From Lachnospiraceae bacterium (lineage in GTDB: Bacteria; Bacillota; Clostridia; Lachnospirales; Lachnospiraceae), in assembly GCA_022776445.1 (NCBI GenBank), contig JALFHZ010000074.1, forward strand, positions 1 through 36,549: DNA of 36,549 nt. Direction: 5' to 3'. Of the stretch, positions 7,858 through 12,507 are shown piece after piece. A program made the translations under genes and the position numbers. Every line of letters begins with the position of its first letter. The stretch's first letter is position 1. The notes beneath the pieces were generated by a model. It did no database searches and had not been told where the DNA came from. It worked only from the letters and a program-made list of their open reading frames with translations.

Positions 7858-7887
7858 CATATTTTAATGAAAAGGAGGATTTTTCAT

Positions 7888-8616
7888 ATGAAGCATAATA
7901 AGTGGGCAAAGAAACTGATTGTACTGGCGCTGGCAGGCATTCTGTCTGCGGCAGGTGCTGTGGCATCTCTGGCAGCGACGAGACTGGACACGGTATCGGA
8001 TCCTTATTGGGATGAAGAGAATATGACAGTCGCGGTCTGGGAAGAGGTCGAGGACGCATATCAGTATCAGGTTTACCTGTACTGTGAAGAAAGCAAGGTG
8101 GCTGAGATCAAGACCAAAAAGACAAAGTATGATTTTGAACGCAAGATGACCAAAGCCGGGGAATATACGTTCCGGGTTCGGGCACTGGCAAAAGGCTCAG
8201 GTTCGAGGGATGGAAGCTGGTCTGAGTATTCAGATGCCATCTACATTGATGAGGATTTTGCCGAGTTGATGAAGAATGGCGGCGTGATTGACACGAACAC
8301 CTCCGGTCCTGGTGCAAAAACTGACGGTTCCGGTGCTACGGAAGAGTTCAGCCTGGTATATACCGCTCAGTGGATGCAGGACAGTGTCGGCTGGTGGTAC
8401 CGCAGAAGCGATGGTACCTATCCGGTCAATACCTGGTGGCAGGATCCGTCCAACGGAATCTGGTATTATTTTGACGGAAACGGATATATGGTGACCGGCT
8501 GGATTGACTGGAACGGCAGCCGCTATTACTGTGATGACAGCGGTGCAATGCTGACCGGTGCGCAGGTGATTGACGGTGTCAGCTGTCAGTTTGATGCGGC
8601 CGGTGCACTTCAGTAA
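7888..8616 (+). CDS. Secreted protein with fibronectin-like and cell-wall-binding repeats
   Basis: This 242-residue exported protein has a Sec signal peptide (1-30, cleavage likely after SLAA). A beta-rich region at about 32-122 has the WSEYSDAIYI ending of a fibronectin type III-like fold, and a Gly/Thr linker follows at about 133-150. The C-terminus carries Trp/Tyr-rich cell-wall-binding repeats (about 160-242) with WWYRRSDGTYPVNTWW, WYYFDGNGYMVTGW and YYCDDSGAMLTG. Such repeats bind choline or other wall polymers. There is no catalytic domain, so it may be an adhesin or wall-associated accessory protein. I use ATG 7888 because AAGGAGG at 7871-7877 is its ribosome site; an upstream in-frame ATG at 7867 would read through that site. 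It lies directly before the spoIIIA operon. Confidence 0.85.
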   Translation: MKHNKWAKKLIVLALAGILSAAGAVASLAATRLDTVSDPYWDEENMTVAVWEEVEDAYQYQVYLYCEESKVAEIKTKKTKYDFERKMTKAGEYTFRVRALAKGSGSRDGSWSEYSDAIYIDEDFAELMKNGGVIDTNTSGPGAKTDGSGATEEFSLVYTAQWMQDSVGWWYRRSDGTYPVNTWWQDPSNGIWYYFDGNGYMVTGWIDWNGSRYYCDDSGAMLTGAQVIDGVSCQFDAAGALQ

Positions 8617-8645
8617 GTATATCTGCCGCTCTCCCCTCATATATA
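8617..8645 (+). promoter_or_regulatory. Putative sigma-E-like promoter for the spoIIIA operon
   Basis: GTATATC at 8617-8623 and CATATATA at 8638-8645 are 14 bases apart. The Bacillus sigma-E consensus is roughly kmATATT, 14 bases, CATACAmT, and spoIIIA is a sigma-E operon in known sporeformers. Transcription would start near 8650-8653, giving a leader of only about 17 bases. The match is partial, so this is a candidate rather than a firm call. Confidence 0.5.
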
Positions 8646-8666
8646 TTAGCTATGAGGGGAGGGTGG
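8626..8666 (+). promoter_or_regulatory. Hairpin that sequesters the spoIIIAA ribosome-binding site
   Basis: CTCCCCTCATA at 8631-8641 is a perfect inverted repeat of TATGAGGGGAG at 8651-8661, with a nine-base loop. The stem extends outward to 8626/8666 with two G-U pairs. The 3' arm contains the GGGGAGGG Shine-Dalgarno of spoIIIAA, five bases before its ATG. No T-tract follows, so it is not a normal intrinsic terminator. A transcript reading through from the upstream gene would fold and hide the ribosome site. Confidence 0.7.
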
Positions 8667-8668
8667 AC

Positions 8669-9640
8669 ATGGATAGAAAAGAAGAACTGATCAAAATATT
8701 TTCTAAAGATATCAGAACGATTCTCAGGCGTTTAACCGTGGATTTCCAGCAGGTGCAGGAGATCCGGCTCCGGGTACAGGCGCCTCTTCTAATGATCTGC
8801 AACAATCTTGAATTTTATATTACTCCGGAAGGAACATTAAGCAAACGGGCGGATGAAGCATACCTGGTGTCCAGGCAGGAGCTGAAGGAAACCCTGGAAT
8901 ACATGAGCAGCTACTCTCTCTATGCGTTTGAGGAGGAGATGAAACAGGGATTCATTACGATTCAGGGCGGGCATCGGATCGGAATCGCCGGAAAAACCAT
9001 CACGGATGAAACCGGAATCCGTACGATGAAGTTCATATCCTTTATTAATGTACGGCTGTCCCATCAGGTGCGCGGCTGCGCCAGTGCAGTGCTGCCGTAT
9101 CTGTATGAATGCGGACGGATTCTGCATACGCTGATTATTTCTCCGCCCCGATGCGGAAAAACAACACTTCTCAGGGATATTATACGTCAGGTTTCCAACG
9201 GAACCGGACCGGAAGCAGGGGTGACGGTTGGCGTGGTGGATGAGCGCTCGGAGATCGGAGCGTGTTATCAGGGGATCCCGCAGAATGAACTGGGAATCCG
9301 GACGGATATCCTGGACTGCTGTCCGAAAGCGCAGGGGATGATGATGCTGATACGGACTATGTCACCGCAGGTCATTGCGGTAGATGAGATCGGCAGCCGG
9401 GAGGATCTGGAAGCGATGGAATACGTCATGAACTGCGGCTGCAAGCTGATTGCGACGGTGCACGGCAGTTCCATCGAGGATATCCGACAGAAACCGGTGC
9501 TGCGGAAGCTGGTCATGGAGCGATGGTTTGAACGATATATTCTTCTGAATAATTTTGGAAAAATCGGAAACGTGGATCAGATTTATGATTCCAGAGGGAC
9601 CAGGCTGTATCCGATCGGTTCCGGAAGCTGTGATGGTTAG
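8669..9640 (+). CDS. spoIIIAA: Stage III sporulation protein AA, secretion-type ATPase
   Basis: SpoIIIAA is the GspE/VirB11-like ATPase of the SpoIIIA-SpoIIQ channel, made in the mother cell to sustain forespore gene expression. The 323-residue protein has an N-terminal domain with the EIRLRVQAPL segment and a P-loop SPPRCGKT (158-165) in which the first Gly of the classical motif is Ser, as expected for this family. A Walker B strand VIAVDEIG lies at 235-242. I chose ATG 8669, five bases behind GGGGAGGG. The same frame is open back to 8570, but that stretch overlaps the preceding gene and the hairpin. Its stop overlaps the start of spoIIIAB. Confidence 0.97.
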   Translation: MDRKEELIKIFSKDIRTILRRLTVDFQQVQEIRLRVQAPLLMICNNLEFYITPEGTLSKRADEAYLVSRQELKETLEYMSSYSLYAFEEEMKQGFITIQGGHRIGIAGKTITDETGIRTMKFISFINVRLSHQVRGCASAVLPYLYECGRILHTLIISPPRCGKTTLLRDIIRQVSNGTGPEAGVTVGVVDERSEIGACYQGIPQNELGIRTDILDCCPKAQGMMMLIRTMSPQVIAVDEIGSREDLEAMEYVMNCGCKLIATVHGSSIEDIRQKPVLRKLVMERWFERYILLNNFGKIGNVDQIYDSRGTRLYPIGSGSCDG

Positions 9641-10163
9641 CTTCTGCCTGCGTATGGCAGGCTGTATTCTGATGGTGACGGGAACTTCCGGATACGGACT
9701 CTGGATGTCCGGAAGATATGGACGGCAGCTGGGGGAACTGGAGCAGCTGCGCCAGATGATGTTTCTGCTAAAAGGGCAGATATTATATGCCAATGCACCG
9801 CTTCAGGAGGCGTTTGAGGCGGTGGGCAGGCGCATGGAGGGGCGGCTGGCACAGCTGTTTTTGCAGGTGGCGGACCGGATCGGACAGAAACAGGGGGAGA
9901 TGTTTGCACAAATCTGGAAAGATGAAGTGGACAGTCTGCAGGATGAGGTGCTGCTTTCGGGCGAGGACAGGCAGTCTCTGGCTGCTCTGGGAGAGCATCT
10001 GGGATTTCTGGATCGGGAGATGCAGGAGCGAAATCTGCTTTTATATCTGGAACAGCTGGATCTGCGCATTCAGGAAATGCGGGAGCATAAGAAGGAACGA
10101 TGCCGCCTGTATACCAGTCTGGGAATCATGAGCGGACTGTTTCTGGCAATTCTGCTGGTGTAG
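9633..10163 (+). CDS. spoIIIAB: Stage III sporulation protein AB
   Basis: SpoIIIAB is a GspF-like membrane platform component of the SpoIIIA complex. The protein has 176 residues with an N-terminal hydrophobic segment (CLRMAGCILMVTGTSGYGLWM), a long Leu/Glu/Gln-rich helical region containing LRQMMFLLKGQILYANAPL and a C-terminal membrane helix (LGIMSGLFLAILLV). This matches the usual length of about 170 and the two-helix layout. ATG 9633 overlaps the end of spoIIIAA by 8 bases. The gene is followed at once by spoIIIAC. Confidence 0.95.
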   Translation: MVSFCLRMAGCILMVTGTSGYGLWMSGRYGRQLGELEQLRQMMFLLKGQILYANAPLQEAFEAVGRRMEGRLAQLFLQVADRIGQKQGEMFAQIWKDEVDSLQDEVLLSGEDRQSLAALGEHLGFLDREMQERNLLLYLEQLDLRIQEMREHKKERCRLYTSLGIMSGLFLAILLV

Positions 10164-10182
10164 GTTGGGAAAGGAGGAACAG

Positions 10183-10377
10183 ATGGGGGTCAATCTGATC
10201 TTCAAGATTGCCGCTGTAGGCATTCTGGTTTCTGTGATATGCCAGGTTTTAAAACACAGCGGGCGCGAGGAACAGGCATTTCTGACCAGCCTTGCCGGAC
10301 TGGTGCTGGTGCTGTTCTGGATGGTGCCTTATATCTATGAGCTGTTTGAAACGATTAAAAATCTGTTTGCATTGTAG
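10183..10377 (+). CDS. spoIIIAC: Stage III sporulation protein AC
   Basis: This small integral membrane protein of 64 residues has two hydrophobic helices (IFKIAAVGILVSVICQVL and FLTSLAGLVLVLFWMVPYIY). The first ends in the LKHSGREEQAF turn typical of SpoIIIAC, and the family length is about 65. ATG 10183 is behind an excellent AAAGGAGGA; the TTG at 10165 in the same frame would place that site inside the gene. It pairs with SpoIIIAD in the channel base. Confidence 0.95.
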   Translation: MGVNLIFKIAAVGILVSVICQVLKHSGREEQAFLTSLAGLVLVLFWMVPYIYELFETIKNLFAL

Positions 10378-10385
10378 GTGAGTCC

Positions 10386-10772
10386 ATGACGGTGGTAACG
10401 ATAGCGATTGTGGGGATAATGTCAGTTATGCTGGCAGTACAGATGAAGGGAATGAAAGGAGAATATGCTTCGTATCTTGCGGCCGCGGCAGGATGCTTCA
10501 TTTTTTTCTGCGGAGTGACGAAACTGGAATCCGTTTTTGATGCGGTACGGAAGATTCAGGAAATGATTCATGTCAACCGGATTTATCTGACCGCACTGAT
10601 GAAAATGACGGGAATTACTTATATTGCGGAGTTTGCATCCGGGATCTGCCGGGATGCGGGATACGGCGCGATTGGAAGTCAGATAGAGATTTTCAGTAAG
10701 CTTTCTATTCTTTCGGTCAGTATGCCGATCGTGCTGGCACTTCTGGAAACTCTGCAGGAGTTCCTTACATGA
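10386..10772 (+). CDS. spoIIIAD: Stage III sporulation protein AD
   Basis: This 128-residue polytopic membrane protein has several hydrophobic helices, including YLAAAAGCFIFFCGV and LTALMKMTGITYIAEFASGICRDAGYGAIGSQIE, the latter being the recognisable SpoIIIAD signature. It is the membrane partner of SpoIIIAC in the mother-cell SpoIIIA complex. ATG 10386 sits 8 bases after the previous stop, and its own stop overlaps the spoIIIAE start by ATGA, indicating coupled translation. Confidence 0.95.
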   Translation: MTVVTIAIVGIMSVMLAVQMKGMKGEYASYLAAAAGCFIFFCGVTKLESVFDAVRKIQEMIHVNRIYLTALMKMTGITYIAEFASGICRDAGYGAIGSQIEIFSKLSILSVSMPIVLALLETLQEFLT

Positions 10773-11959
10773 AGCAGCTTGTGATGTTCCTGCTTGTGGT
10801 GGAACTGAGCTGTTCCGGCAGCTTTGCCGTTCAGGCGGAGCAGCTGGAACGCAGCGTAGAGGCGGAAGGGGAATACGATTCCGGCAGGGAGGAATCGTAT
10901 TATGACGGGATGGAGGAAGAGTGGAAAGAACTGGATCGTTTCCTGGAGGAAGAGCTTGAAGCGGAGGGGGAGGATATCCGTTTTTCCGGAGTTGTGAAGG
11001 ATCTGATGCGTGGACATACCGAAAGCGTTGGAAAATGGATCATCACGGCGCTGCGAACGGTTCTGTTTCGCGAGACCTTGCATGGAAGCCGTCTGGCCGG
11101 GCAGCTTCTGGCACTGGGCATGGTCGGAGCGGTCTTTACCGGATTCTCAGATCTTTTTTCCGGAGGACAGATTTCGGAAACCGGATTTTTCCTGACCTAT
11201 CTGATGGCATTTTGTGTGATGGCAGCTTCTTTTTTTGAAAGCATTGCCATCACCTGTGAGGTGCTGGAGCGGCAGGTTGCGTTTATGAAAGCACTGATGC
11301 CGTCATATTTTCTTGCAGTGGCATGGTCAGGGGCGAGTATGACATCGGCCGCCTGGTATGAAGTAGTTCTGCTGCTGATTTCGGCAGTGCAGTGGCTTTA
11401 CTGGAAGCTTTTGATTCCGCTGATCCGGGTGTATGTGCTGCTTGCGATGGCGGGGCATATGGCCAGGGAAGACATGCTTTCCAGAATGACGGAGCTTTTA
11501 AAATCAGGTGTGGCGTGGGGAACCCGTGCGCTGATCGGAGTTGTTCTCGGATTTCAGCTGGTTCAGGGAATGGTACTGCCCTATGCAGACGCAGCGAAAA
11601 TGACAGGGGTTCAGAAGCTTTTGCAGGTAATTCCTGGAGTGGGGCAGGGCGCCGGGGCGGTGAGCAAGATGCTGCTTGGCTCCGGGGTTCTGATTAAAAA
11701 CACCATGGGTGCTGCGGCAGTGGTGATTCTGCTGATTCTGAGTCTCCTGCCGATTGTAAAACTGGCAGTCCTGGTGTTTCTCCACCGCAGTGTGGCGGCG
11801 ATCATACAGCCGATCGCCGATAAGCGGCTTGTCGCCTGCATCAGCAGTGTGGCGGAGGGGCAGAAGCTGCTTCTGATGCTGGTATGTTCTGCTCTGTGCC
11901 TGTTTGTGATCACCATAGCCCTGATCTGTTCCGGAACGAATGTGTCTTATCTGGCGTAG
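10769..11959 (+). CDS. spoIIIAE: Stage III sporulation protein AE
   Basis: This 396-residue polytopic membrane protein is the largest membrane component of the SpoIIIA complex. It has an N-terminal signal-like helix (MFLLVVELSCSGSFAVQA), an acidic extracytoplasmic segment (about 28-75, many Glu/Asp) and then at least six hydrophobic helices from about residue 108 onward. Family-typical segments include MKALMPSYFLAVAWSG and QKLLQVIPGVGQGAGAVSKM. Length agrees with family members of about 400 residues. The start overlaps the spoIIIAD stop. Known homologues are required for forespore sigma-G activity. Confidence 0.95.
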   Translation: MKQLVMFLLVVELSCSGSFAVQAEQLERSVEAEGEYDSGREESYYDGMEEEWKELDRFLEEELEAEGEDIRFSGVVKDLMRGHTESVGKWIITALRTVLFRETLHGSRLAGQLLALGMVGAVFTGFSDLFSGGQISETGFFLTYLMAFCVMAASFFESIAITCEVLERQVAFMKALMPSYFLAVAWSGASMTSAAWYEVVLLLISAVQWLYWKLLIPLIRVYVLLAMAGHMAREDMLSRMTELLKSGVAWGTRALIGVVLGFQLVQGMVLPYADAAKMTGVQKLLQVIPGVGQGAGAVSKMLLGSGVLIKNTMGAAAVVILLILSLLPIVKLAVLVFLHRSVAAIIQPIADKRLVACISSVAEGQKLLLMLVCSALCLFVITIALICSGTNVSYLA

Positions 11960-11970
11960 GAGGTGAGCCG

Positions 11971-12507
11971 TTGGAAGCATTTTATGGGTGGGTGCGCAGC
12001 CTGACCGGGTATTTTTTGTTCATGCTGGTGCTGGAGCATCTGCTTCCGGGAAAAAAGTACGGAAAGTATATCCGCCTGTTTGCGGGAATGGTGCTGATTC
12101 TTCTGGTACTGCAGCCCCTGGCGGGCAATCTGCGTATCGACGAAAAGATGGCGCTGGCATATGAGGCCTCTGTATTCCGGTATCAGGCGGATGAACTGAA
12201 GGAGGAATTGCTCGGCATCGGAGAGAAGCAGCTGGACCGGATGATCGGTCAGTATGAAGAGGCTGTGGAAATGGATCTGAAAGGTATGGCAGAGAACGAA
12301 GAAATGACGGTTCAGGCCTGTGAGGTGACGATTGGAAAGGATGAGGAGAAGGAGTCGTTTGGCCGGGTGACGGATATCCGGATGGATGTGTCCGGGAATA
12401 CAGATCAGCTTCGTCTTGATGCCGGAAGGCTGAAAAGAAAAATCGCATCTTATTATGATTTGGAGGAAAGGCATGTGGAAATTCAAATCGTGGAAGGGAA
12501 AAGATAA
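11971..12507 (+). CDS. spoIIIAF: Stage III sporulation protein AF (TTG start)
   Basis: This 178-residue protein has two N-terminal membrane helices (LTGYFLFMLVLEHLLP and YIRLFAGMVLILLVLQPL) followed by a soluble alpha/beta domain. The pattern matches SpoIIIAF, whose domain resembles type III secretion ring-building folds. The start is TTG 11971, placed 5 bases after AGGAGGTG, which itself spans the spoIIIAE stop. No ATG or GTG in this frame has a comparable ribosome site. The 3' end overlaps the spoIIIAG start. Confidence 0.93.
   Translation: MEAFYGWVRSLTGYFLFMLVLEHLLPGKKYGKYIRLFAGMVLILLVLQPLAGNLRIDEKMALAYEASVFRYQADELKEELLGIGEKQLDRMIGQYEEAVEMDLKGMAENEEMTVQACEVTIGKDEEKESFGRVTDIRMDVSGNTDQLRLDAGRLKRKIASYYDLEERHVEIQIVEGKR

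Follow-up and report, generated by a model that had tools for sequence, protein, structure and literature searches.

Hairpins proposed to separate read-through from own-promoter transcripts

The closest described relative of the arrangement discussed here is the lysozyme gene e of phage T4 (also soc, 49, and I-TevI), for which RNA reading through from upstream is reported to fold over the ribosome site (PMC3014915). The late promoter of gene e lies in the DNA encoding the 5' strand of this structure, and as a result, late transcripts lack that strand. Hairpins of this type are seen in related phages and missing in some, and a 100-fold effect is cited in the same text (PMC3014915). A second relative is sigG of B. 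subtilis, at which a hairpin of 20 or more bp is proposed to block the read-through RNA and to be unable to form from own-promoter transcripts (PMC5942855). The logic is already known, being established for T4 gene e and proposed for B. subtilis sigG.

Here, we focus on a stretch of 36,549 nucleotides from a Lachnospiraceae bacterium (hereafter the window) with a hairpin over the ribosome site of spoIIIAA. An earlier note on this DNA had drawn the parallel with the T4 lysozyme gene but did not name the case within sporulation. As in gene e, the Shine-Dalgarno sequence is paired in the 3' strand, and the structure is kept in relatives (here within one genus only). A candidate own promoter is assigned to the 5' strand; its elements are present and conserved, and its start is predicted to lie after that strand. 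In contrast to gene e, the locus is a cellular developmental operon, the promoter is of the sigma-E type instead of a phage late promoter, several operons are concerned, and the spoIIIAA hairpin of many relatives is also terminator-like; the T4 system was tested experimentally, whereas the present analysis is computational. With B. subtilis sigG, the locus shares a sporulation gene behind another operon and a hairpin that would be excluded from own-promoter transcripts. The gene, the sigma factor, and the lineage differ, and spoIIIAA follows a gene with choline-binding repeats and not a sporulation operon such as spoIIGA-sigE, which precedes sigG; the present hairpin also has co-variation support.

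Searches of open-licence full texts turned up no account of a hairpin of this kind for spoIIIA or spoIVA, although further open-licence papers and subscription papers could contain one. A transcription start-site study of C. phytofermentans, which covers growing and substrate cultures, never mentions the word spoIIIA (PMC5171806). Within the literature searched, four things are apparently new: the set of genes, the co-variation of the arms, the placing of a sigma-E-type promoter inside a hairpin that in many species is also terminator-like, and the occurrence at several operons.

The spoIIIA locus and its leader hairpin

The coding sequence of spoIIIAA, the first gene of the spoIIIA operon, occupies positions 8669–9640 of the forward strand (Pfam Spore_III_AA, E 3.8e-146; ATG at 8669–8671). 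It is followed on the same strand by spoIIIAB, an AC/AD-type gene, AE, and AF (9555–12507; assigned by Pfam, with mechanical ORF bounds). Upstream lies a co-directional gene with choline-binding (cell-wall) repeats, identified as an ORF and by Pfam (7867–8616, forward strand), whose stop codon at 8614–8616 is separated from the spoIIIAA ATG by 52 nt. We infer that this neighbour is vegetative and that read-through from it into spoIIIAA occurs.

The earlier note had described, between the two genes, an 11-bp perfect hairpin extendable to 16 bp with two G-U pairs, and it is found as stated. C8631–A8641 pairs perfectly with T8651–G8661 around a 9-nt loop (8642–8650, forward strand), and five extra pairs, including the G-U pairs T8630–G8662 and G8628–T8664, complete the stem. 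The 5' arm (8626–8641) and the 3' arm (8651–8666), both on the forward strand, are supported by sequence, folding, and the genus alignment; the 5' arm consists of the promoter spacer and the CATA of the -10 element. The Shine-Dalgarno GGAGG (8658–8662, forward strand), which the note had likewise assigned to the 3' arm, lies wholly inside it and is fully paired. Folding of both kinds of transcript, which the note had proposed as a check, agrees with its account: RNA spanning 8617–8690 folds into the stem at -31.6 kcal/mol (z -5.09; none of 200 shuffles as good) and RNA spanning 8610–8700 folds at -33.9 kcal/mol (z -5.42), and RNA beginning at 8651 is unstructured (0.0 kcal/mol) and RNA beginning at 8645 reaches -1.9 kcal/mol. 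The hairpin is real and buries the Shine-Dalgarno of spoIIIAA. Rfam gives no match at the gathering score to riboswitch or leader families in the window.

Sigma-E promoters combine a KMATATT-like -35 element, a spacer of 13–15 nt, and a CATACA-like -10 element. Judged against this consensus, the window carries a candidate match, GTATATC-14-CATATATA, with a sigma-E-type -35-like GTATATC at 8617–8623 and a -10-like CATATATA at 8638–8645 (both on the forward strand, the latter from sequence and leader comparison); these elements stand exactly where the earlier note had placed a promoter overlapping the 5' arm. Presuming the usual spacing for such promoters, transcription is predicted from the -10 position to start at about 8649–8653 on the forward strand.

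Conservation of the hairpin and the promoter

The host group is a genus of mostly uncultured gut-type bacteria (Lachnospiraceae). The 24 genomes of it that were compared, that of the window included, provide 22 spoIIIAA leaders (21 distinct); the genomes without a usable leader are G014, with a weak match elsewhere only, and G022, with a truncated gene. From outside the genus, the best 80 of 146 loci from named genome contigs were taken, of which 68 remain after removal of 11 genus duplicates and one contig-end case, and 90 leaders are thus compared in total.

The arms co-vary within the genus. In the 22 leaders, 89.0% of 336 cells are paired against 79.6% after shuffling, a measure that is favoured by the choice of the arm register for best pairing, and both-side changes, which this choice hardly favours, occur in 9 of 16 pairs against 4.9 after shuffling; the co-variation score is 0.429 against 0.230, and none of 500 shuffles is as high in any of these. 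Pairing falls to 52–62% when the partner is slid by 1–3 columns. With the four -10 pairs that the promoter fixes omitted, 92.9% of cells are paired and the score is 0.542 against 0.278 (0 of 500 shuffles), and the number of doubly changed pairs, one of five measures, is matched by 1 of 500 shuffles. Own arms pair at -25.47 kcal/mol against -19.17 kcal/mol for arms swapped within the genus, and none of 20,000 permutations is as good; since all 22 leaders are related, these counts from shuffles and permutations should not be read as probabilities. Columns 4–14 of 19 of the 22 leaders (without L019, L020, and L022) contain 178 Watson-Crick, 27 G-U, 1 A-C, and 3 other cells among 209. With 27 G-U cells against one A-C cell, selection therefore appears to see the plus-strand RNA and not a DNA palindrome. 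Arms still match in leaders whose loop measures 34–65 nt (L007–L009, L011, L013–L015).

At spoIVA and at spoIIIAA alike, the hairpin loop is enlarged in six genomes (G003, G004, G005, G011, G017, and G021). The enlarged spoIVA loops (L139, L143, L144, L146–L149) were identified by visual inspection; a strong hairpin is missing from L139 and L148.

Stem conservation with compensatory changes, for which the earlier note had proposed to examine relatives, holds in the genus, where more than half of the pairs are doubly changed, but is not seen outside it. Own arms do no better than swapped ones in 13 leaders from the Hungatella/Lacrimispora side (5678 of 20,000 permutations as good) and in 53 other leaders outside the genus (1840 of 20,000), and therefore spoIIIA does not generally need the hairpin. 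Some non-genus leaders, for example L045–L047, still pair at -16.6.

The promoter is conserved more widely. A script assigned it in 83 of the 90 leaders, with the -10 element beginning 21–34 nt ahead of the start codon for 71 of the 83, and the exact CATATATT is the first -10 candidate in 61 of 90. The -35 elements of congeners read GCATAAT, GCATAAA, GCATATT, and similar; that of the window is less canonical, and its spacer has 14 nt versus 13 nt in 52 of the 83 assigned promoters. Leaders of Blautia, Hungatella, and Lacrimispora have the promoter without the long stem, and the promoter is therefore under selection apart from the hairpin. Given the conserved position of the sigma-E-type promoter, transcription should begin within the loop, after the 5' arm.

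At the aligned spoIIIAA start codon, 7 of the 22 genus leaders (L007–L011, L014, and L015) have ATT or ATC, and their canonical in-frame codons, where present, lie at seemingly unusable distances from the Shine-Dalgarno. It is likely, judging from the aligned leaders, that spoIIIAA is initiated non-canonically in these seven, which would lower its translation further.

Terminator-like character of the hairpin

Like an intrinsic terminator, the hairpin has a GC-rich stem that in many relatives is directly followed by a U-tract. Unlike one, it has a promoter within its 5' arm and the ribosome site of a gene within its 3' arm, and the window has no U-tract after the stem; a scan of window positions 8400–8900 found no terminator-like site. 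In four relatives scanned in the standard way, the orthologous hairpin is called terminator-like in L042, L012, and L033 and is not called in L090, and a stricter custom finder reports a terminator-like hairpin spanning the promoter in 8 of the 22 genus leaders. Many congeners have a T-run after the 3' arm that extends into the start codon. A run of at least four T between -12 and +3 of the start is present in 15/22 leaders of spoIIIAA, 19/22 of yabP, and 21/22 of the spoIIE-like gene, the latter two being loci discussed below, and at spoIVA the T-run is three or shorter in 19 of 21 leaders.

Separate terminators 38–160 nt upstream were detected in 22 of 67 non-genus leaders (L077 excluded for too little sequence) but in none of the 22 from the genus (Fisher p 0.001, a value that ignores kinship and the short upstream gaps of the genus). 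The hairpin surrounding the promoter may thus replace the upstream terminator in the genus, where short gaps leave less room. Two of the 22 non-genus leaders with a separate terminator, L062 and L066, have a promoter-spanning hairpin as well. It is a 17-bp hairpin with a T-tail over the CATATATT -10 element and a G-rich spoIIIAA ribosome site, directly before an ATG that lies 30 nt upstream of the aligned start, and it is apparently independent of the genus cases.

The same layout at other sporulation operons

The pattern CCCC..CATATA..GGGG, with nested matches counted once, occurs at two places in the window's genome, spoIIIAA and a spoIVA start at a contig end, and its reversed control has no match in that genome. 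A variant, CTCC..CATATA..GGAG, led to yabP and to a gene of 469 aa with a SpoIIE domain about 1.2 kb away (Pfam YabP, SpoIIE); as a specific detector it was rejected, with many unrelated matches among those listed. Two further patterns were dropped: CATAWW..CATATA, with 24 matches versus 15 in the reversed control in three genomes, and a sigma-E promoter with a downstream GGAGG/ATG, for which the 30 loci inspected were mostly chance matches.

The spoIVA, yabP, and spoIIE-like leaders have the same order of elements, beginning with the -35, a spacer that complements the Shine-Dalgarno, and the -10, and continuing with the loop, the arm that carries the ribosome site, frequently a U-tract, and the start. 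Opening the ribosome site costs at least 12 kcal/mol in 20/22 leaders of spoIIIAA, 13/21 of spoIVA, 21/22 of yabP, and 19/22 of the spoIIE-like gene. Among controls, the same threshold is reached in 2/20 leaders of spoIIID (in truth 2/19, L386 having been misplaced by the script) and in just 2/18 of sigG, the gene for which the large B. subtilis hairpin is proposed (PMC5942855). These counts exclude truncated spoIVA leaders (L156–L158) and leaders at contig ends or from partial matches (yabP L325, spoIIE-like L341, sigG L117, L128, L131, and L133, and spoIIID L399–L402). A third intended control, spoIIM, has no match in the 24 genomes and was unusable. In the swap test, with duplicates and leaders without an assigned -10 (two spoIVA, one spoIIE-like) dropped, the permutations as good as own arms number, of 20,000, 10 for spoIVA (n=19), 1 for yabP (n=22), and 5 for the spoIIE-like gene (n=17). 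The hairpin is therefore present at spoIIIA, as the earlier note had it, but is not special to spoIIIA, as these operons share the layout.

A co-directional ORF of at least 70 aa ends at most 200 nt upstream in 21/22 leaders of spoIIIAA, 20/21 of spoIVA, and all 22 each of yabP and the spoIIE-like gene; in genome G016 the gaps at the four loci are 50–73 nt. Judged by sequence, with Pfam run on the window's neighbour only, these neighbours are choline-binding-type, HD/synthetase-like, S4-like, and DivIC-like. A script call of upstream-gene orientation (co-directional in 18/22 for spoIIIAA and 6/22 for yabP) was set aside as unreliable at long antisense ORFs. The exceptions without a co-directional neighbour, L022 at spoIIIAA and L137 at spoIVA, are also without the usual stem. 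At spoIIID, a co-directional neighbour is present in 13 of 20 leaders and a strong hairpin in two, and therefore a co-directional neighbour alone is not enough.

The two spoIIID leaders, L382 and L393, have their own long hairpin around a CATA-type -10 element, which is missing in the other correctly placed leaders; on this comparison the hairpins are apparently local gains. The spoIIID gene of L393 is preceded at 61 nt by the end of a co-directional gene that looks unrelated.

We lean, by a little, towards a multi-operon safety device in this genus. Sigma-E-type promoters located directly behind a co-directional gene, namely those of spoIIIA, spoIVA, yabP, the spoIIE-like gene, and, as apparent local gains in two genomes, spoIIID, would each be nested in a single hairpin, with the spacer as the anti-Shine-Dalgarno, that serves as a ribosome-site lock and often as a terminator and is absent from sigma-E RNA.

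Occlusion of ribosome sites compared across gene starts

Opening the spoIIIAA ribosome site of the window costs 18.8 kcal/mol, the highest value among 31 gene starts taken from mechanical ORFs, the next being 9.2. In G016, of the same genus, the ortholog costs 30.2 kcal/mol against a median of 2.5 and ranks first among 365 starts (400 kb) and first among 1077 starts (1.2 Mb sampled), in a sample whose top is enriched for these genes by 4 of 60 stretches chosen as holding or adjoining the spoIVA, spoIIIA, or yabP region. Shuffling of all of the leader but its last 20 nt gives an expectation of 0.25 starts of at least 16 kcal/mol in G016, against six observed, two of which (spoIIIAA and the spoIIE-like gene) come from stretches picked for known genes. 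Weak spoIIIAA leaders within the genus are L019 (6.1 kcal/mol) and L022 (7.2 kcal/mol).

Strong ribosome-site hairpins are also present in G016 at genes without an evident sporulation role, such as those of a large secreted protein and a LysR-type regulator, and therefore the design is not exclusive to sporulation. At two G016 starts, the 5' arm of the ribosome-site hairpin lies in sigma-A-promoter-like sequence: TTGAAC-17-TATAGT at L300 (start 421), and TTGACA with TTATACT 17 nt on at L293 (start 4700). Going by these two, the promoter-in-hairpin layout may extend beyond sporulation genes. A G016 gene of the DUF1540 type (L221, start 1975) has a long ribosome-site hairpin with an opening cost of 17.4 kcal/mol and with CATACTA in its 5' arm, which we take to resemble a sigma-G -10 element.

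Proposed mechanism and alternatives

We consider it about three-quarters probable that the hairpin is a lock gated by the start site. Structure, occlusion, co-variation, conserved promoter elements, and recurrence at other sporulation operons are the computed results behind this reading. RNA reading through from the upstream gene would hold both arms, fold, and hide the Shine-Dalgarno, and translation would be repressed to an extent that is itself a matter of inference. Transcripts made by sigma-E polymerase would begin in the loop and thus be without the 5' arm, leaving the ribosome site open. That arm would double as the spacer of the sigma-E promoter; since sigma-E recognizes the -35 and -10 elements, the sequence between them is at liberty to complement the Shine-Dalgarno. 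In congeners with a U-tract after the 3' arm, the same hairpin would also terminate read-through transcription; in the window's species, which has no U-tract, the ribosome-site lock alone would remain. The translation lock proposed in the earlier note is thus supported by genus co-variation and the conserved promoter, yet it appears to be only half of the likely function, as the hairpin of many relatives is also terminator-like. Of the two observations that the note had named as contrary to it, a sporulation start upstream of 8631 and a stem that relatives do not conserve, neither emerges from the sequence evidence, in which the start is predicted to follow the 5' arm.

An unlikely but serious alternative is that the hairpin is primarily the intrinsic terminator of the upstream gene, into which promoter and ribosome site were fitted to save space, the window copy having decayed and lost its U-tract. 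The terminator calls in three relatives and by the custom finder, the common T-runs at spoIIIAA, yabP, and the spoIIE-like gene, and the lack of a separate upstream terminator in the genus are all in line with it. Yet neither the window, which has no U-tract, nor L090 is called; the stem is retained without a U-tract in the window and in L003, the T-runs of spoIVA are mostly short, and pairing persists across loops of 34–65 nt, which are poor for termination.

The remaining alternatives have much less to recommend them. The hairpin could be a constant brake, present in every transcript and merely reducing SpoIIIAA synthesis, as a small sigG hairpin of B. subtilis does, which is reported to cut expression 2–4 fold (PMC5942855); low translation is also suggested by the ATT and ATC aligned starts, but the conserved promoter puts the start after the 5' arm and RNA from 8651 is unstructured, and we regard a brake as improbable. 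Still harder to maintain is the idea of a DNA operator, with the inverted repeat bound by a dimeric regulator at the promoter: the palindrome does cover the -10 element and the start region, but arm sequences vary between species with pairing kept, G-U cells far exceed A-C cells, the repeats of spoIIIAA, spoIVA, yabP, and the spoIIE-like gene differ in sequence, and long loops are tolerated. Chance pairing between a spacer rich in C and a ribosome site rich in G would explain why arms swapped between species pair fairly well (mean -19.17 kcal/mol), but no permutation matches the own arms, and with the folding, leader, and co-variation shuffles also against it, hardly any weight can be given to it.

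Implications

Sporulation genes are often located a short way downstream of other genes, and it is chiefly sigma-factor control that is considered to keep them silent during growth. If the start-site-gated lock is correct, placing the promoter within a hairpin that stops read-through, whether by hiding the ribosome site, by termination, or by both, would add a compact second layer of control. The rule that the spacer complements the Shine-Dalgarno is easily scanned for in any genome. It also calls for caution in annotation, as terminator-like hairpins over start codons, some of them apparently ATT or ATC, can be genuine gene starts. For the organism, such a layer would mean that sporulation genes are made only during actual sporulation and that stray messages from their neighbours are blocked.
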